From a virus, in the IMG/VR virus record IMGVR_UViG_3300036832_000220, positions 1 to 28,375 of that record: a stretch of DNA of 28,375 nucleotides. One strand, 5' to 3'. Shown piece by piece: positions 1 to 11,800 of the stretch (within the stretch, counting starts at the first letter, position 1; every line of letters starts with the position of its first letter). The notes under the pieces were generated by a model. It had not been told where the DNA came from. It saw nothing but the letters and a program-made list of their open reading frames with translations, and made no database searches. The position numbers were made by a program, and so were the translations under genes.

Positions 1-117
1 CACACGACGGACAGCGTCGATCCGCACGCCGAGGGCGACGAATACACCGTCTCGGATCCGGCGTTGTTCGAGACGTTGATCGCGATCGGCTTTGTGCATT
101 ACGAACCGGCCCCGTGA
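1..117 (+). CDS. Unknown protein, C-terminal 38 residues only (5' end outside window)
   Basis: An open frame runs in from the window edge and stops with TGA at 115-117, overlapping the GTG start of the portal gene by GTGA. The visible tail is acidic then hydrophobic, ending in FVHYEPAP. I do not recognise the family. Its place directly before the portal gene suggests a packaging or head gene, but the end does not look like the C-terminus of a large terminase that I can identify. Only the reading frame and the coupling to the portal gene are supported. Confidence 0.6.
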   Translation, partial: HTTDSVDPHAEGDEYTVSDPALFETLIAIGFVHYEPAP

Positions 118-1505
118 ACGTTTTCGGCTTTAACATCACGCGCGGGGGCGTCCGCTCGACGCAATCGCCGCCGACGACGGGCGTCGGCGGTGGCTGGTGG
201 CCCGTCGTGCGCGAGTCATTCTCGGGCGCGTGGCAACAAAACGTCGACGTCACCCTCGATAGCGTGCTCGCGTACTTCGCCGTCTACGCGTGCATCTCCC
301 TGATTGCGTCGGATATCGGAAAACTGACGCTGCGCCTGGTCGCAAAAGACGCCGACGGCATTTGGAACGAGATCGACAACCCCGCGTTTTCGCCCGTGCT
401 CCGCAAGCCGAATCGCTACCAGACGATCAATAAGTTTATCGAGCAATGGATCATCTCCAAGATGATCAACGGGAACGCGTACGTGTTAAAGGAACGCGAC
501 GCCCGCGGGATCGTCGTCGCGCTCTACGTGCTCAATCCCATGCTCGTCATGCCGCTCGTCGCGCCCGACGGATCGGTCTATTACAACCTCGGATCCGATT
601 ACCTCTCGGACGTGCCGTTCGGCGCGCCCGCCGTGCCGTCGAGCGAAATTATCCACGACACGATGGTGACGCTCTTTCACCCACTCGTCGGCGTCACGCC
701 GATCTACGCGTGCGGCCTGGCGGCGACGCAAGGGTTGCAGATCCAAACGACGTCCACGAAGTTTTTCGGCGCGGGCAGTCGGCCGGGTGGCATTCTCACG
801 GCCCCCGGCGCAATCTCGGACGACACGGCGGCGCGCCTCAAAGCGAATTGGGATACGAATTTCACCGGCGACAACGTCGGCCGCGTCGCCGTCGTCGGCG
901 ACGGGTTGCACTACGAATCGATGATGATCAAGGCCGACGACGCGCAATTGATCGAGCAACTCAAATGGACGGCCGAAAACGTGTGCTCGTGCTACCACGT
1001 GCCACCGTACATGATCAATGTCGGGCCGACGCCGCCGTACGCCAACGTCGAGCCCGTATTTCAGCAGTACTACGCGCAATGTTTGCAATCACTGCTCACC
1101 AACCTCGAGAAGTCGCTCGACGCCGGCCTCGGGTTGCTCGACAAGATCAACGGCACGCAGTACGGCACCGAGTTCGATGTCGACGATCTCATCTGGATGG
1201 ATACGGCGACGCGCACCAAGGCCGCGGGCGATGCGATTTCAACCGGGGGCATGGCCCCCGACGAGGCGCGCAAAAAGTACTTCGGGCTCGGCCCCGTCCC
1301 CGGCGGCGCGACGCCGTACATGCAACAGCAAATGTTTTCGCTCGCCGCCCTGGCCGAGCGCGATGCGAATCAACCCTTTGCAAAACCGGCCACCCCGCCG
1401 CCCGCGCCGCCCGCCGACACCACGCCGCCGCCGCCTGAGGATCAGACCAACACGCTCGACGCGCTCGGCGCCTTGTTGGCGGCCGAATTGGAGCGCGTGG
1501 CGTGA
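114..1505 (+). CDS. Phage portal protein (HK97-type)
   Basis: The product is 463 residues, a normal length for HK97-type portals. Portals form the dodecameric ring at one capsid vertex through which DNA is packaged and ejected. The segment around residues 55-75 (YFAVYACISLIASDIGKL) is the conserved N-terminal helix of this family. It is followed by the expected long alpha/beta region and a disordered Pro/Ala-rich tail (residues about 415-445). The start is GTG at 114, inside the TGA stop of the gene before. The end overlaps the next GTG start by 4 bp, so translation is probably coupled. Unlike classical HK97 order, no protease or capsid gene follows; connector and tail genes come instead. The family call is firm from the motif and context. 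Confidence 0.92.
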   Translation: MNVFGFNITRGGVRSTQSPPTTGVGGGWWPVVRESFSGAWQQNVDVTLDSVLAYFAVYACISLIASDIGKLTLRLVAKDADGIWNEIDNPAFSPVLRKPNRYQTINKFIEQWIISKMINGNAYVLKERDARGIVVALYVLNPMLVMPLVAPDGSVYYNLGSDYLSDVPFGAPAVPSSEIIHDTMVTLFHPLVGVTPIYACGLAATQGLQIQTTSTKFFGAGSRPGGILTAPGAISDDTAARLKANWDTNFTGDNVGRVAVVGDGLHYESMMIKADDAQLIEQLKWTAENVCSCYHVPPYMINVGPTPPYANVEPVFQQYYAQCLQSLLTNLEKSLDAGLGLLDKINGTQYGTEFDVDDLIWMDTATRTKAAGDAISTGGMAPDEARKKYFGLGPVPGGATPYMQQQMFSLAALAERDANQPFAKPATPPPAPPADTTPPPPEDQTNTLDALGALLAAELERVA

Positions 1506-2014
1506 CTGGCGACGAGATGCGCGGGCTCGTCCTGGCGATTGCGCCGACGGTGCGCGACTACGTGGCCCGGAAGGCCGCCGAAACCGCCGCGCCGCTGCTC
1601 GAGCGGATCGCCGGCCTCGAGGCGCGCCCGGCGCCGCGGGATGGGCGCGACGGCCGCGACGGGGCCGCCGGCGTCGACGGCGCGCCGGGCGCGGCGGGCC
1701 TCGACGGCCTCGGGTTCGGCGATCTCGAACTGTTGCACGACGGCGAACGGCGGATCACCGTGCGCGCCGTCCAGGGCGACCGGGTGAAAGATCTCGGCGT
1801 CGTCGTGTTCCCCTGTGAGATCTATCGCGACGTGTGGGCCGCGACCAAGACGTACGAGCGCGGCGACTGTGTCACGTACAGCGGATCGGAGTGGCACGCC
1901 AACACGACGACGACGGCGAAACCGGGCGACGGATCGGCCGCGTGGACGTTGAAAGTCAAACGCGGGCGCGACGGCAAGGACGCGACGACGAGCGCGATCG
2001 GAGCGCGCCACTGA
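1502..2014 (+). CDS. Collagen-like protein with a possible CBM5/12-like carbohydrate-binding module
   Basis: The product is 170 residues with a GTG start coupled to the portal stop. An N-terminal helical stretch (about 1-40) leads into Gly-X-Y collagen-like repeats around residues 50-75 (GRDGRDGAAGVDGAPGAAG). A compact Trp/Tyr-rich segment follows at about 110-145, with W, then YERGD, then VTYSG and W, ending in AAWTL. That spacing resembles chitin-binding type 3 (CBM5/12) modules, and a second short GRDGKD tract closes the protein. Collagen tracts in phages usually trimerise surface fibres. Position between portal and connector suggests a head or neck decoration protein. The collagen repeats are seen directly; the carbohydrate-binding assignment is inference from residue spacing. 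Confidence 0.7.
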   Translation: MTGDEMRGLVLAIAPTVRDYVARKAAETAAPLLERIAGLEARPAPRDGRDGRDGAAGVDGAPGAAGLDGLGFGDLELLHDGERRITVRAVQGDRVKDLGVVVFPCEIYRDVWAATKTYERGDCVTYSGSEWHANTTTTAKPGDGSAAWTLKVKRGRDGKDATTSAIGARH

Positions 2015-2365
2015 ATGGCCACGCTCGTCACGCTCCCGCAAGTGAAGGATCATTTATTGATCCCGATCGTCGCCAACGATCCCGGCGATCCCGATCTCCA
2101 ACTCAAGCTCGACGCCGCGGAAGCGGCGATCCTCGACTACGTCGGCGCGACGGTCTATTGGCGGCCAATCGTGGCGACGTGGCTCGATGGGAGCGTGACG
2201 CCCCCCGGGTTTGTCCTGGCCGCGATTCTCTTGCAGTGCGGCGAGCTCTGGCGATTCCGCGGGGATGATCTCGCCGTCGCCGGCCCGATGCGGACGCCCG
2301 GCCAAGATTTTTCGGATGTCGTCGTGAACCTGTTGCGACGCGTCCATGATCCGGTGGTGGTATGA
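2015..2365 (+). CDS. Head-tail connector protein (gp6-like)
   Basis: The product is 116 residues, starting at ATG immediately after the preceding TGA. The N-terminus (MATLVTLPQVKDHLLI), the central LDAAEAAILDYVG helix and the later helix with QCGELWRFRG are typical of the HK97 gp6 / DNA-packaging connector family. These proteins form the ring that docks under the portal and holds the DNA in. The next gene, head closure, overlaps by 4 bp, giving the usual gp6-then-closure order. Length and order fit the family. Confidence 0.85.
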   Translation: MATLVTLPQVKDHLLIPIVANDPGDPDLQLKLDAAEAAILDYVGATVYWRPIVATWLDGSVTPPGFVLAAILLQCGELWRFRGDDLAVAGPMRTPGQDFSDVVVNLLRRVHDPVVV

Positions 2366-2742
2366 GCCCGGCGCTCTCCCAAAACGCGCGGCTCGCGTTG
2401 CCCACCCCCGCGGGCCGCCGGATCCACTGGATCACGTTACAGAACCCCGCGCCGCTCGTGCCCGACGGCGACGGCGGATTTACCGGGGGCGGCCTGGCGG
2501 ATTGCGATCCGGCCGGCGTGCGCGGCGAGATCCGCGAGCCGAAAGGCCGCGACGAGGAATACATCGCGTCGGGGACGGTGGTCCCGATCGCGACGCGCAT
2601 GGTGACGATCCCCTATCACCCGCAAGTCACCACGAAAACCGTGCTCACGTGCAACGGGCGCACGTTCAACGTCACCGGGATCGACAATCTCGACCAGCGC
2701 AATATCGAATTGCGGTTGTATTGCGTGGAAGTGATCGCATGA
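2362..2742 (+). CDS. Head closure / head-tail joining protein
   Basis: The product is 126 residues. Its layout is the small beta-barrel of the phage head-tail joining family (SPP1 gp16 / HK97 gp7 type): ITLQNPAPLVPDGDGGFTGG, then GVRGEIREPKGRDEEY, then MVTIPYHPQVTTKTVLTCNGRTFNVTGI is a run of strands in the order seen in these adaptors. These proteins plug the connector after packaging and receive the tail. ATG at 2362 overlaps the preceding stop (ATGA), and its own TGA overlaps the next ATG at 2739. The call is well supported by pattern and context. Confidence 0.85.
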   Translation: MSPALSQNARLALPTPAGRRIHWITLQNPAPLVPDGDGGFTGGGLADCDPAGVRGEIREPKGRDEEYIASGTVVPIATRMVTIPYHPQVTTKTVLTCNGRTFNVTGIDNLDQRNIELRLYCVEVIA

Positions 2743-3164
2743 ACCGCCTGTACTTTGAGGGGCTCGATCTCGACGAGTGGGCCGGGTGGCCGGATACCCT
2801 CATGCACGACGCCGAAGCGATCGTCACCGAGTACGTGGAAGGGGCCCAAGCCGCGATCGCCGCGGCGTACCCGTCCGAGGCCGCGGCGTTGGCCGCGCGC
2901 GTCACGCATACGATCGCGGTGGACGGCTATCAGATTGCGGCCACGGTCCGCAACCCGCACCCGCTCGCGTGGATTTACGATCACGGGACGATGACGCGTC
3001 ACACCGAGGCCGGCGTCGATCGCGGCGCCGAGGGGCCCAAACATATTTTTGTGCCGATCGCGTACGAGTGGGCCCGGGAACAATACCTGGCGTTGTCGGC
3101 GATGCTCCAGGGATTCGGGTTTATCGTCACGGGCGAGATCGACGACGGGGATCGCATTGAGTAA
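2739..3164 (+). CDS. HK97 gp10-like tail/neck protein
   Basis: The product is 141 residues. The start is the ATG inside the TGA of the head-closure gene. Two helical stretches (about 17-65), then TIAVDGYQIAATVRNPHPLAWIYDHGT, match the general form of HK97 gp10-like proteins. In that family a central beta-sheet carries a Tyr-x-x-His-Gly-like segment (here YDHGT) and acts at the head-tail interface or in tail completion. Its slot between head closure and tail terminator is exactly where gp10-like genes sit. The stop overlaps the TTG start of the next gene by 8 bp. Confidence 0.8.
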   Translation: MNRLYFEGLDLDEWAGWPDTLMHDAEAIVTEYVEGAQAAIAAAYPSEAAALAARVTHTIAVDGYQIAATVRNPHPLAWIYDHGTMTRHTEAGVDRGAEGPKHIFVPIAYEWAREQYLALSAMLQGFGFIVTGEIDDGDRIE

Positions 3165-4248
3165 CTCGGCCTACGCGGATCGCGTGCGTGCCGACGGCGC
3201 GATCGCGTACTGGCGCCTCAATGAGCCGATGGGGACGCACGCGCGCGACAGCATTGGATACAACGACGGGACGATCAGCGGCGGCGTGACACTGAATCAG
3301 CCGGGGACGCTCGCGGGCGACTCCGCGATGGCGTTTGATGGGACGAGCGGGTACGTCACGGTGCCAGCGTTTACGATCCCAGCCGCTTGCACGATCGAAG
3401 CGTGGATCAAGAGTACGTTTCAGGGAGCCTATCAACCGTTCTTCAGTAATGCGAGCGGCGGGGGTGACATTTTCGTAGGGACTAATACAGGGTTGATGGT
3501 GGTCTACAACAGCAGTGGCGGCGCGCAGGGTTCGCATCCGGTCTGTGATGGGACGTGGCATCACTTAGTGTGGACGACGAACGGAGCCCTCTCTAATTTC
3601 TATATCGACGGCGTTGTGCATGACATAACTAACTTTGTCCAACCCAATGTCGCTGAGACTAGCTCGGGGTGGCTTGGGGCGCGCGTGTCCACGAGTACTT
3701 TTTGGACGGGCACTATCGATGAAGTCGCGATCTATCCCACGGCGCTGACTCCCGCGCAGATTCTCGCGCACTATCAACTCGCCACGGCGATCCCGGCGCC
3801 GCCGGCCTCGAGCGCGATCGATCGGGCCGTGATCGGGTACCTAGCCGGCGATACGACGCTCGCGGGGCTCATGCCGGGCGGCGTGTGGTACCAAGTGGCG
3901 CCGCCGAGCTCGCAACAATTCGTGATCGTGTCGCTCGTCGAGAGCGTCGAGCGGATCATGTTTGGCGGCCGCGCCTGGGAATCGGCGCTCTATCTCGCGA
4001 AGGCCGTCGAGTTTTCGTCGCCGACGGTGCACCACGCCAACGCGCGCGAGGCCGGCGATCGAATCGATGCGTTGCTCGATCCGCAACCGCCGGCGCCGCC
4101 GGCGCCGCTGACGATCACCGGGTACGGGGTGATGCTCCTGCAACGCGAGGGGCGGCGCGTCTACGATCGCGAGCCCATGGCGAACGACGCGACATTGATG
4201 TGGACACATTGTGGCGCGATGTATCGCGTCTGGGCCGAGGCGCAGTAA
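3157..4248 (+). CDS. LamG-like lectin domain fused to a tail terminator (DUF3168/gpU-like)
   Basis: The product is 363 residues from a TTG start at 3157, supported by GGGGA five bases upstream; a 5' extension from another ATG would run through the gp10-like gene. Residues about 8-205 form a concanavalin A-like LamG domain: IAYWRLNEP, then AMAFDGTSGYVTVP, TIEAWIK, DGTWHHLVWT, FYIDG and TGTIDEVAIYPTALTPAQ. After a PAPPASS linker, residues about 218-363 look like a tail-completion/terminator protein (AGDTTLAGLMPGGVWYQVAPP, then FVIVSLVES, then the last strand before the C-terminus). A stand-alone terminator is about 130-150 residues, so the lectin is an N-terminal addition. The LamG DNA is less GC-rich, uses CAG, CTG and TAAT-containing words avoided elsewhere, and has few GATC sites, suggesting recent acquisition. 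Confidence 0.82.
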   Translation: MSNSAYADRVRADGAIAYWRLNEPMGTHARDSIGYNDGTISGGVTLNQPGTLAGDSAMAFDGTSGYVTVPAFTIPAACTIEAWIKSTFQGAYQPFFSNASGGGDIFVGTNTGLMVVYNSSGGAQGSHPVCDGTWHHLVWTTNGALSNFYIDGVVHDITNFVQPNVAETSSGWLGARVSTSTFWTGTIDEVAIYPTALTPAQILAHYQLATAIPAPPASSAIDRAVIGYLAGDTTLAGLMPGGVWYQVAPPSSQQFVIVSLVESVERIMFGGRAWESALYLAKAVEFSSPTVHHANAREAGDRIDALLDPQPPAPPAPLTITGYGVMLLQREGRRVYDREPMANDATLMWTHCGAMYRVWAEAQ

Positions 4249-4267: not shown

Positions 4268-4678
4268 ATGGCGGCAACCGATCGGCACCATGGCAAAAGC
4301 GGCGTCGTCGAAATGGATATCACGGGGGGATCGACGTTGGTCCCGGTCGTGTCGCTCGATTACTGGGATCTCGACATGACGACGCAAAAGGTCAAAGTCA
4401 CGGCCTTTGAAGATCCCAACGAGGTGTACGTAATCGGCCGGCCAGATCTCAAGGGGACGTACAAGGGCTGGTACGATTCCGTGGGCGGCATGGTGATTTT
4501 TGACGCGATTCAAAGCCCGACAGCGGTCGCGCTCAAACTCTTACCCGTGTCGACCGATACCACGAAAGCCTTTGCCGGTAAGGGGTGGATGGACGGCAAG
4601 ATCACGGTCGACTCGAATGGCGCCGTTGCCGTGAATGGGACGTTTGTCGCCGCGGGCCCGTGGACGTTGCCGACGTAA
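4268..4678 (+). CDS. Major tail (tube) protein
   Basis: The product is 136 residues. The ATG at 4268 is preceded by a strong Shine-Dalgarno sequence (GAGGGAAGGGG) with suitable spacing. This is one of the few genes here not coupled by overlap, as expected for an abundant structural protein. The product is beta-rich, with VVEMDITGGSTLVPVVSLDYWDLDM at the start, a KGTYKGWYDS segment and a strand-rich C-terminus, resembling lambda gpV / HK97 tail-tube subunits. It lies between the tail terminator and the assembly chaperones, the standard tube position. No Ig-like C-terminal domain is attached. Confidence 0.8.
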   Translation: MAATDRHHGKSGVVEMDITGGSTLVPVVSLDYWDLDMTTQKVKVTAFEDPNEVYVIGRPDLKGTYKGWYDSVGGMVIFDAIQSPTAVALKLLPVSTDTTKAFAGKGWMDGKITVDSNGAVAVNGTFVAAGPWTLPT

Positions 4679-5539: not shown

Positions 5540-6979
5540 ATGGCGGTCACGGGCAAATTCGACGCCGATTTTAGCGATTTTAAAAGCGAAGTCGACGAGT
5601 CGACGGCGAGACTCAAAGCGATGGAAGTCGAGGCCGACGCCGTGGGCGCCGCCGTCGACAAGGCGCTCACGCCGAAAGGCGGCGCCTCGAGCGCGCTCGA
5701 CGCGCTCACGGGCGCGCTCGGCAACGTGGGCACGGCCGCGGCCGCGACGACGACGACGCTCGGCCAGCTCGCGATGGAAAATAACGCCATCGCGGCGAGC
5801 AGCACGATCGTGGTCACGGCCGCGGAGATCGAAGCGGCCGGCATTAACAGCCTAGCCAAGGAAATCGAGGCCGTGACCGGCGAATTGTTTACCGCGGGGG
5901 GCGCCGCGAGCGCGCTTGGCGCGGCGTTTATCGGGTGGAAGATCGGGCGCGCGGTGTCGGATTTTTTCGATCTCGATAACATCATCGGCAAGGCGACGGC
6001 CTCGTTGCTCGGGTTTGGCAATGTCGCGGCGGAAACCGCGGCCGCCAAGGCCGACACGCTTGCGAAGGCGACGGCCGAGCTCGGGTATCAGATCACCAAC
6101 GTCGACGAAGCGGTCAAAGGCCTCACCGAGAAAAACCTCGAGCGCATGAAAACGGCGCTCCAGGCGACAGCGGCCGCGGCCTCGGATAAGGCGTTCTACG
6201 ATTGGGCCAAACAAATCGAGCAACTCACCCAGGCCGGGTTGATCCCGCAACTCACGAAGGATCTCGACTCGCAAGCGTTCAGCGTGAAAGAGCTCGCGAC
6301 GCGGTACGGCGGCGAGGGGCTCACCGGCGCGATTCAGGAGTACGCGCGCGAGCTCACCAAACAACGCGCCGCGGAAAAAGAGGCCGACGCGAGCCACGCC
6401 GATTTTCTGAAAGAAGTACAGGGGATCCTCAAGGCGCAAGACGACGAGAAAAACAAGCAAGAGGCGATCGACGCGAAAGTCCGCGAGCTCGAGCGGAATC
6501 ACCTCGTCGACATGGGCGCGGGGATCCTGGGATTGAGTCGGCTCGAGCAAGAGAGCTCGCAAAAAGATTTCGAGGCGACGGCCAAACAGATCACGGCGCA
6601 CGAGAAACTCGTCGCGACACTGAAAGAGGAAGTAGCCGCGGCAACGGCGCTCAATACGGCGCGCACGCTCGGCCCGACGACACCCGACGCCGCGGGGGAC
6701 GCCGCGAGCCGGCGCGATGCCGCGCTCTCGCGGATCTCGGCGCAACAGGCCAAGGCGCCCGAGGTCGATCTCTCGTCGCTCATCGTCGACGCCTGGCTCA
6801 AATTCGATGAGCAAGTCGGCGCGCGCGCGCCGTTGCCCGGCGCCGCCGGCACGGGTCCGACGGTCAATATGAACGTCAGCGGCGTCTTTGATATGTCGAC
6901 GGTCCGGCAAATGACGGACGCGATCTCGGCGGAACTCATGCGGCGCACGGGCGCCGATCGGTATCTCCCGGCGCGGTAA
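5540..6979 (+). CDS. Tape measure protein
   Basis: The product is 479 residues and follows the G/GT chaperones. The N-terminus (FDADFSDFKSEVDESTARL) is the typical coiled-coil start of tape measure proteins. Ala-rich helices fill much of the protein, a hydrophobic, possibly membrane-active segment lies around 115-150 (GGAASALGAAFIGWKIGRAVSDFF), and charged coiled coil runs from about 255 to 375. The C-terminus has GPTVNMNVSGVFD, a strand often found in tail-length proteins. At roughly 1.5 angstrom per residue, the general rule for this family, the tail would be about 70 nm, short for a siphovirus. No lytic transglycosylase or peptidase domain is visible. Confidence 0.9.
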   Translation: MAVTGKFDADFSDFKSEVDESTARLKAMEVEADAVGAAVDKALTPKGGASSALDALTGALGNVGTAAAATTTTLGQLAMENNAIAASSTIVVTAAEIEAAGINSLAKEIEAVTGELFTAGGAASALGAAFIGWKIGRAVSDFFDLDNIIGKATASLLGFGNVAAETAAAKADTLAKATAELGYQITNVDEAVKGLTEKNLERMKTALQATAAAASDKAFYDWAKQIEQLTQAGLIPQLTKDLDSQAFSVKELATRYGGEGLTGAIQEYARELTKQRAAEKEADASHADFLKEVQGILKAQDDEKNKQEAIDAKVRELERNHLVDMGAGILGLSRLEQESSQKDFEATAKQITAHEKLVATLKEEVAAATALNTARTLGPTTPDAAGDAASRRDAALSRISAQQAKAPEVDLSSLIVDAWLKFDEQVGARAPLPGAAGTGPTVNMNVSGVFDMSTVRQMTDAISAELMRRTGADRYLPAR

Positions 6980-7448: not shown

Positions 7449-8516
7449 ATGACGCAAGTTCTCAAGCATCTCAAAAACTCCACGATCGCCGACGGGCCCG
7501 ATCCCAATCAGATCAACCCGTCGGATTGGAACGCGGCCCACGTATTTTCGGCCGGCGCCCTGGGCGGCCTCTTGATGCGGGACACGGGCGACGCGACGTA
7601 CGGCGCGTCGTGGCTCGCGAGCGTCGCGGCCGGGAGCGTGTTGATCTCCAACGGCGTCGGCGCCGCGCCGACATGGGCCGCGTCGCTCACGCTGGGCGCC
7701 AATCTCACCATCGGCGGGGCGTTGATCGCCAACGGCGCGGTGCAACATCAAATCAACTTCAGTAGTAGCGCGATTCTTGGACTGCAAATCCGCAACACGC
7801 TGGCGGGCCCTGCGGCCGGGGCGTACTTCCAACTCGGGAACGATAACAACCCGGCGTTGTTGAACGTCGTCTCATATGCGTCGACGTATACCGGTGCGGT
7901 TGGGATCGGGGATCGCGCGGGCGGGACGCTGTTTTATCACAGTGGCGTCGGCGGCCTGGTGCTGCACGCGGCGAGCGGGGCGCTTGAATTTTGGACGAAC
8001 TCCGCAAAACGCTGGACGGTGGATAACGCCGGCGCCTTGTTCGCGGGTGTGGTAGCGGCGGGCAATTCGCATACCTGGTTGCAGCAAAACGGCGGCGCGA
8101 TTCAGATCGGCAACGCGGGAACCGCGAATGTGTTTTGTCTGAATTTTATGAATGCCAACGGCGGCGTTGGGAGCGTGGCGACGAGCGGATCGGCGACGGC
8201 CTTTAACACGGCGTCGGACGCGCGCCTCAAAACCGATCGCGGCCTCGCGCGCGATACCGCGGTACTGGAACGCACGGCGATCCATGACTACGCGTGGATT
8301 GCGGACGGCACCCCTGCGCGTGGCGTGTTCGCGCAAGACGCGCACGCGATTAAACCGGACGCCAATATACCCGGGACGGATGAGCGCGACGAGCACGGCC
8401 GACTCGTGCGCCCGTGGTCAACCGATTACTCCAAGTACGTGCCGGATCTCATTGTCGGGTGGCAACAGCATCACGCGCGGCTCGCGGCGCTCGAGCGCGT
8501 GATCGCGCGGGGGTGA
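7449..8516 (+). CDS. Tail fibre with C-terminal intramolecular chaperone (peptidase S74) domain
   Basis: The product is 355 residues. The N-terminal part (NSTIADGPDPNQINPSDWNAAHVF) is a common attachment segment of short phage fibres. The middle (about 40-245) is Gly/Ala-rich beta structure like a triple-stranded fibre. The C-terminal S74 domain starts at TASDARLKTD, with the catalytic Ser-Lys pair five apart (S256 and K261). It ends in a helical coiled coil (VPDLIVGWQQHHARLAALERV). In endosialidase-type fibres this domain folds the trimer and then cuts itself off before the Ser. It should therefore make a mature fibre of about 255 residues. This is likely a receptor-contact protein. The stop is 5 bp before the next GTG. 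Confidence 0.88.
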   Translation: MTQVLKHLKNSTIADGPDPNQINPSDWNAAHVFSAGALGGLLMRDTGDATYGASWLASVAAGSVLISNGVGAAPTWAASLTLGANLTIGGALIANGAVQHQINFSSSAILGLQIRNTLAGPAAGAYFQLGNDNNPALLNVVSYASTYTGAVGIGDRAGGTLFYHSGVGGLVLHAASGALEFWTNSAKRWTVDNAGALFAGVVAAGNSHTWLQQNGGAIQIGNAGTANVFCLNFMNANGGVGSVATSGSATAFNTASDARLKTDRGLARDTAVLERTAIHDYAWIADGTPARGVFAQDAHAIKPDANIPGTDERDEHGRLVRPWSTDYSKYVPDLIVGWQQHHARLAALERVIARG

Positions 8517-8877: not shown

Positions 8878-11800
8878 ATGGGCGGCGCGTTTTACGCGCG
8901 CGCGTTTTACGGCGTCGGGTTTTTCGTCGGCGTCTTGCTCAACTCGTCGGCAATCGCCGTCGGCGCGTCGGGGACGCTGAGCACGCCACAACCGCTCGAG
9001 GCCACCCCCGCGATCGCGGTGAGCACGACGGCGAGCGTCCGCGCGCCGGCCGTGTTGACGACGGTTCCGGCCCTGGCGATCGGGGTAGCCGCGGATCTGC
9101 AAACCTTCAGCGGGATCGCGGCGGCCGTCGGGATCGCGCTCAGTGTCACGCCGCCCCGGCTCATTTTCGGCGATCAATCCCTCAGTAGCGGCGCGGGCGC
9201 CTTCTACGGCGTCGCGTTCTATTACCCGGCGTTTGGCAACGGGCAACCGTACGCGGGGATCCTCGTCGCGAGTGCCGTCACGCTCACGGCGCCGATCGTG
9301 TTGCGCGACAGCGTGGGGATCGCGATCAGTGCCCGCGGCCAAATCAGCCTCAAGCCGATCCTGGGGGGCACGAGCGGGATCGCGATCGGCGTCGCCCCGC
9401 TCACGCTCACCGTCACCGGGATCTCGGGCACGACGCCCGTGCTCGTGATCGGCGGCGTCCCCTGGACCGCGCGCGTCGGCTCGGCCGTCGTGCGCGATAT
9501 CGTCAACGAACAAGTCAACACGTTCGAATGTGTGATCGACGATCCCGCGGGCGCGCCCGTGCCGGGGAACGATTTGCGGCTCGGCCTCGGCTCGCTCTTG
9601 CCCGATCGATTGATTTTCGGCGGCGTCGTGCAAAGCGTCGACTCGACGTTTACCCTGACGACGGATCACCCCTCATGGATCGTGCGCGCGAGCGATTACG
9701 GCGTCTTGCTCAATCGCCGGCTCGTGTGGGGCACCTATACCAACGTGTCGGCGACGAGCGTCGCGTACGATCTGCTCATTCGGTTCTCGGGCGGGTTTGG
9801 CGGCGTGCATGTCGCCGTCGGGTTGCCGCCGATCACGCTCACGCTCGACGGCGTGAACCTGAGCGCGGCGCTCACCGAGATCGCGAATTTGATCGGCGGC
9901 TACTGGTACGTCGATTACAGCAAAGACGTGCACCTTTTCGTCACCGAAACCGATCCGGCCACCGATCCGCACCCGCTCGACGGGACGCCGCCGGCGCCGC
10001 TCGGCGATCCGATCCTCACCATGCGATCGGATAACAGCCAACGCCGCACGCGGATCCTCGTCGTCGGCGTGAGTGTGGGATTGCTCGCGCCCGTGCGCGC
10101 CACCGATACGCAGATCCCGATCGAGACGGCCGAACCCTTCGCGGGCGTCGGCGCGCTCGCGCAATTCGGGAGTGACGGCGCGCGGATCGCGTATGCGAGC
10201 ACGGCGGCCGGCGATGCGAGCGGCGTGCTCGTCGGCAACGTGGCGGCGCCCGGCACGGCGCCCGCGGCCGCGCTCGCGAGCGGCGTCGCCGGCGCGCTCG
10301 TCGGGTGGTATCAATGGGCCGTCGCCTTCGGGACGGCGGACGGCGAGACGCCGATCGGGCCGCGTACGGCGTCGCTCTTTGCGCCGGCCTTCGCGTCGCC
10401 AGGCGCAACGCCGGGGATCGGGCCCGAGGGGCCCGTCGGGCCGCTCGTCGGCGCGTATCTCTGGGCGGTCACGTACGTGTCGACGCTCGGCGAGACGCTC
10501 AACGGGCCCGGCGCCTTCCGCAACGCGATCGGGCTCACGGCCGGCGCCGCGAATTTGATCGTGGGCCCGGCGGCGATCTCGCGGTTGTCGCCGGGCGCGT
10601 ACACGTGGGTAGTGACGTACCTGACGGCGTACGGCGAAACCTTGCCCGGGCAAGGGGTGTCGGCGACGCTCGGCGACGTCGCGATCCCGGCCGGGCCGAG
10701 CGCCATTGGCACGGCCGCCGGCGCCGGGCCGATCCCGATCGGCGTCACCACGGTTTACCGCTGTACGTTCGTCACGCAAGACGGGGAAACCGCCGGCGGG
10801 TTTGGGACGGGGTACACGCCGCCGGCGTTTGCGGGCCCGGCGCTCACCTATCAAAGCATGGTCGCGCATGGCGGCCTGTACGGCGGCCCGTACGCGTACG
10901 CCGTGTCGATCGTCACGGCCGCCGGCGAGTCGGCCTTGACGGGATCGTTCAACGCGGGCTCGGGATTTTTCACGGCCGCGCCGCAAACGGCGCCGACATG
11001 GACGGGATCCCAGGATACCCAAGGCCGGATCCAACCCGGGTTTACGTACTCCTGGGCCGCGAGTTTCTTTAGCGACGCGTACGGCGAAACGGGGCTCAGT
11101 TACTCGTACCAACTGAGCGTCGGCGGCGCGTCGGTGATCCGGTTGCTGATGAATGTCCCCGGGTTGCAAGGGGGCGCCGACGGGATCCGGATTTACCGCG
11201 CGCAAGCCAACGGCCCGTTTACGCTCAACGCCGAATTTCGCCGCGCCAACTACCCGACGCAATATTGGGACTACCTGTCCCAAGGCGAGCAAGGCGGCGC
11301 GTACCCCGTGCAATCGCTCAAGGCCGGCGTGCAAGCCGTGCTCACGCTCGGCGCGTCGCCCGAGGCCGGCGTCGTCGCGCGGCGGATCTATCGCACCAAG
11401 TCGGGCGGCGCCGACTGGTATCTCGTCGGCGAAGTGCAATCCAATACGCCCGTCACCTTTACGGATGTCGTGTTTGATCAAAACCTCACGACACGCAACC
11501 CCGTCACCGGCCTGGCCGGCCGCGCGGCGGCGCTCTCCGGGATCCCGATCGGGCCCGTCGGGACGATCGGCCGGCGGATCTATCGCCAACGCGCGAGCGC
11601 GTACTATCTCGTCGGCGAGCTCAAAGACAATTCGAGTACCACATGGATCGACGTCGCGGCCGATAGTGCGTTGTCCGTCGTGTGCCCGGGGATCAACACG
11701 GCCGGCGCGCTCTATGCGAGTGGCGGCCAACCCCTCGTCGCGATTCCGACGGGCCCGGCCGGCGTCACCGGCCGGCGCGTCTATCGGACGCCGGCCAACG

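Follow-up and report, generated by a model that had tools for sequence, protein, structure and literature searches.

The host range of siphophages is usually credited to the tail tip, and glycan-binding decorations on structural proteins, including those of the neck, are known. In the lactococcal 936 siphophages, decorations of the neck and tail with CBMs bind host cells, if weakly; these decorations (NPS, the MTP extension TpeX and evolved Dit) resemble the locus described here in placing carbohydrate-binding-type domains on neck and tail proteins, in being optional between close relatives, and in presenting different folds on one scaffold (PMC6669499). Their carriers are either NPS, a distinct collar protein, or the MTP or Dit, equipped with BppA-type, β-helix or esterase-type CBMs (PMC6669499), whereas here a LamG domain is located on the essential tail terminator itself, and relatives use the head closure protein Hc1. 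Because the domain is borne by the terminator, and the gene is without a BppU-like N-terminus according to both Pfam and the structural model, the locus does not represent a neck passage structure of the lactococcal type. Domain shuffling has likewise been described in neck passage proteins, tail fibres, and endolysins, through which related phages have recently exchanged host-binding domains (PMC10684548); however, whole non-homologous domains are swapped in those cases, while here replacement is limited to the core, the fold and its ends being retained, and terminators are not mentioned in that study. Terminator folds with additional domains appended are covered in a review of T5, where the example serves sheath interaction in contractile tails and is not a lectin (PMC11784142). 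Mycobacteriophage Douge similarly carries accessory domains on essential structural proteins, which were shown to label the host surface, but they are Ig-like rather than LamG and reside on the major capsid and tail tube proteins, not on the terminator (PMC13033339). The head spike base and fibre of RcGTA also bind capsule away from the tail tip (PMC10218006; NCBIfam NF048002), and several LamG relatives identified here are fused to spike_base, although the RcGTA spike is located on the capsid and not on the neck ring. In the open-access literature we found no LamG domain on a terminator, no repeated gain and loss of such a domain, and no core exchange inside a conserved frame, which suggests, if weakly, that these three features are new here.

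The window, that is, the whole analysed stretch of 28,375 nucleotides, is a viral contig, in which the gene order portal-Ad1-Hc1-(Ne1)-terminator-MTP is that of the Type 1 neck (PMC4362835), with Ne1 assigned by place only. The relevant features are the following.

114..1505, plus strand: portal protein (Pfam Phage_portal, E 7e-77)
2015..2365, plus strand: head-tail adaptor Ad1 (phrog_40, E 2.9e-6)
2362..2742, plus strand: head closure protein Hc1 (Pfam Phage_HCP, E 2e-8; phrog_25)
2739..3164, plus strand: Ne1-position gene, between Hc1 and the terminator (by position and synteny in relatives; without a Pfam match of its own)
3157..4248, plus strand: LamG-terminator fusion gene, 363 aa, whose TTG start overlaps the stop of the upstream gene (Pfam, two-domain AlphaFold2 model)
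3157..3330, plus strand: LamG N-terminal frame, aa 1-58 (kept among fused relatives; ordinary codon use)
3331..3708, plus strand: exchanged LamG core, the jelly-roll body (identity to the related loci L002 and L004, codon adaptation, GC)
3709..3780, plus strand: LamG C-terminal frame, DEVAIYPTALTPAQILAHYQL (86-92% aa identity among fused relatives)
3781..3807, plus strand: Pro/Ala-rich linker, ATAIPAPPA (sequence; low-confidence gap between the domains in the model; no in-frame start codon)
3808..4245, plus strand: tail terminator, Tc1, of the gp17/gpU fold (homologue family matches, AlphaFold2 model, PDB structure matches)
4268..4678, plus strand: major tail protein, MTP (phrog_10528 major tail protein, E 6e-4)
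7449..8516, plus strand: tail fibre (phrog_5668 tail fiber; weak Peptidase_S74; 7650-8330 hypervariable)

Directly after the portal gene, the gene at 1502-2014 specifies a second glycan-binding-type protein near the neck, in which a CBM_5_12 carbohydrate-binding module (E 2.6e-6) accompanies a collagen-like stretch. The L003 contig ends in 127 bases that match positions 1-127 of the window without a difference, as expected if one assembly-graph branch ends both.

The fusion gene is a single uninterrupted open frame, as established from the ORF and its translation, in which residues 1-208 constitute a Laminin_G_3 domain and residues 218-363 the tail terminator. The full-length AlphaFold2 model (pLDDT 82.9, pTM 0.61) consists of two separate domains and a linker, with a β-sandwich at residues 1-210 and low confidence in the core loops. 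The Laminin_G_3 match covers aa 61-202 (E 8.5e-23; 81.6 bits vs. the curated cut-off of 27.6), and the best PDB match of the modelled lectin half is AbnA domain 4 (5hon, E 1e-11), making a domain of an arabinanase its nearest solved relative. A ConA-like fold alone is no proof of glycan binding, as such domains may bind protein or calcium, or act structurally; carbohydrate binding by the fused LamG domain is putative, the pointer to it being the fold match to AbnA domain 4.

Since the terminator half of the window has no Pfam or PHROG match of its own, it was tested through 16 homologues, half of which (8 of 16) match PF11367 Tail_completion_gp17 (best E 2.3e-9; E 1.7e-8 for the fused L025) and one of which matches the phrog_176 tail terminator. 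The AlphaFold2 model of this half (pLDDT 87.7) shows helices, long β-hairpins, and a further helix, and its PDB matches (E 8e-5 to 1e-3) are almost only terminators and neck caps, including the monocin cap and the phiXa, R4C, T5, and lambda gpU terminators; a PDB sequence search with the terminator profile gave no match, and none of the cultured phages match this half. The preliminary description had placed a LamG lectin in front of a tail terminator at the neck, and each element of this claim holds: there is one frame, Pfam recognizes Laminin_G_3, the C-terminal half matches solved terminators, and homology puts the terminator hexamer at the end of the tail that is nearest the head. Synthesis of two separate proteins via an internal start was ruled out, as the linker contains no in-frame start codon and the first GTG lies at 3829, inside helix 1; therefore the fusion is the only expected product. 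An assembly chimera was also ruled out, because separately assembled contigs (L002, L004, and L025) show the fusion as well.

Scans through the terminator half identified 17 loci, and the fused relatives found in this way are thus not biased by LamG N-end patterns. Only L002, L004, and L025 carry the fusion, while the terminators of L003, L005-L008, L017-L024, and L026 are without LamG; none of the four fused genes, the window's included, has a disrupted reading frame. That close relatives may lack the N-terminal domain, as the preliminary description considered, is confirmed by L003, which has no LamG despite 92% terminator identity to the window, and by the other unfused loci. Moreover, the terminators of L003 and L004 are 96% identical in nucleotides and those of L024 and L025 are 83% identical in amino acids, yet the lectin is present only in L004 and L025, respectively, and the terminator tree needs three changes of the LamG label, at least two of which are forced by well-supported branches. 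Thus, the lectin has been gained or lost more than once. The terminator scan for prophage relatives in bacterial genomes found none, and LamG is absent within the fetched flanks of 24 portal relatives (Hyphomicrobiales, Burkholderiales, and others).

The lectin itself is divided into segments of contrasting conservation. The terminators of the window, L002, and L004 are 91-96% identical, and the first ~58 and last ~24 residues of LamG show 86-94% aa identity among the fused relatives (87-94% for the N-end of the window vs. L002 and L004), whereas the cores share 28-35% aa and 45-48% nt identity with many indels. Blastn alignments of the window to L002 and to contig G003 stop at 3330-3351 and resume at 3715-3718. 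With 17 window genes as the reference set, the core has a codon adaptation index (CAI) of 0.425, lower than any of the 3401 windows of equal length in the 17 other genes; the N-end scores 0.68 (0.677), the terminator 0.76, and the short C-end 0.49. Deviant codon use also marks the cores of L002 (CAI 0.45) and L004 (CAI 0.34), and three different codon-deviant cores therefore sit on 91-96% identical terminators. The preliminary description took the lectin half for a recent graft with lower GC, no GATC abundance, and codon use to be checked across the gene. The core at 3331-3708 is indeed foreign in codon use and GC, but the ends are resident, so that a single recent graft of the whole lectin half was rejected; GC is lower in this half (0.593 vs. 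0.658 in the window and 0.686 in the terminator), but the core alone (0.560) is responsible for the drop (N-end 0.672); codon adaptation is deviant in the core but normal in the N-end and terminator; and GATC is mildly low (7 seen vs. 10.6 expected; 3 vs. 6.5 in the core), so that "lacks" was an overstatement. Because the ends are conserved and the N-end has ordinary codons, while the core alone is codon-deviant and non-homologous in rate, the lectin is, as judged from sequence, a semi-resident frame with an exchanged core, combined with gain or loss of the whole domain.

The N-end evolves under purifying selection (dN 0.03-0.06 vs. dS 0.48-0.55). The cores could have diverged under relaxed constraint, but their abrupt boundaries, the indels, and the foreign codon use count against it. 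DGR-driven variation was rejected as well: no reverse transcriptase (PF00078) was detected in six contigs (G000-G004 and G009), some of which may be incomplete, making a DGR unlikely, and it is whole segments with indels that differ. No donor of the window's core was found, the nearest LamG core being 36% identical. In the 11.4 kb alignment of structural genes, divergence is deepest in two troughs, one in the LamG core and one in the distal tail fibre (7650-8330), with shorter and milder dips around 5730-6210 and 8970-9090. The same distal fibre segment is hypervariable between the window, G002, and G003, with conserved ends.

A separate LamG scan yielded 48 loci, which were found with N-end patterns, so that N-end conservation in this set is biased. 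In L039, L048, L052, L054, L055, L056, L070, and L080, Hc1 carries a C-terminally fused LamG, in most cases with an Ig-like domain between the two; in the Hc1-Ig-LamG proteins the Hc1 and Ig parts are 55-82% identical and the LamG cores 18-27%, and the lectin on Hc1 of L080 is of an altogether different type. In addition, L065 has a stand-alone LamG gene between Ad1 and Hc1, LamG is fused to RCAP_Rcc01079-type spike base proteins in L042, L050, L058, and L063, and L008 encodes a right-handed β-helix protein (1703-3859) between the terminator and the major tail protein, the N-terminal stretch of which resembles the window's tail fibre anchor. Given these LamG fusions, the stand-alone gene, and the β-helix protein, host-binding-type domains seem to be placed preferentially at the neck of these phages. 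In four of the Hc1-LamG phages (L048, L055, L056, and L080), the major tail protein directly follows a gp10/Ne1-like gene, with no terminator-like gene between the two; their terminator may be located elsewhere or be unrecognised. L033 (contig G008) encodes at 319-2454 one protein with three tandem LamG repeats, upstream of a terminase-like gene.

In known phages, the terminator is a hexamer atop the tail tube. The R4C terminator has its helices at the periphery of the β-barrel ring (PMC10276861), so that a lectin attached N-terminally through a Pro/Ala linker would protrude around the neck in six copies; with R4C as a guide, the N-terminal placement of the lectin is compatible with outward display. 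We therefore consider it probable that this siphophage terminator carries six exchangeable neck lectins that aid adsorption, and that selection has kept their core changing. By analogy with homologous hexamers, six LamG domains would point outward from the tail at its head-proximal end; given the role of the terminator, the fusion protein is presumed to be part of the virion, the contigs being uncultured. The LamG domains may bind host surface or matrix glycans, helping reversible adsorption alongside the tail fibre, and, ahead of engagement by the fibre, would raise the avidity for surface glycans. Selection favouring novel glycan specificities would keep the core changing, presumably through homologous recombination via the conserved lectin ends and neighbouring neck genes. 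Only tentatively do we extend this to a neck that is a dedicated platform for exchangeable lectins, with LamG frames whose conserved ends serve as sockets, taken up repeatedly on the terminator N-terminus, on the Hc1 C-terminus with its Ig-like spacer, or alone, cores recombined at their ends, and a second host-range determinant independent of the fibre.

The LamG domain might instead be a structural decoration that steadies the neck or fills the head-tail gap without any host ligand, given that no ligand has been proven for many of the Ig-like and jelly-roll decorations of phages and some larger terminators bear extra structural domains, e.g., for sheath contact (PMC11784142). We regard this as unlikely, since a brace fits poorly with a lectin that is optional at 96% nucleotide identity of the terminator (L003 vs. 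L004) and with core replacement, and since the only comparably variable region of the structural module is the tail fibre. There is likewise a small chance that the lectin binds the environment rather than the host, be it particles, matrix polysaccharide, or eukaryotic surfaces, and holds virions near hosts, environmental anchoring being a role proposed for Ig-like decorations on capsids. The AbnA match agrees with it, as LamG_3 domains of enzymes bind plant or matrix polysaccharides, and so does the CBM_5_12 domain encoded just after the portal; however, fast core exchange resembles the tracking of a variable target, which a stable polymer would not need. A neutral mosaic insertion, shuffled by recombination owing to the abundance of LamG sequences in these phages (48 loci in one scan, with frequent gain and loss), is highly improbable in view of the purifying selection on the N-end, the intact frames of all four fused genes, and the repeated joining of LamG to two different neck proteins.

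Thus, next to the favoured reading of neck lectins that aid adsorption, the locus presents a neck ring protein carrying a lectin whose variation keeps pace with that of the tail fibre. The natural pairs with and without the lectin, together with several cores on a near-identical terminator, constitute a testable system for the part of neck decorations in adsorption, and they are a warning for host-prediction tools that are limited to tail fibres.
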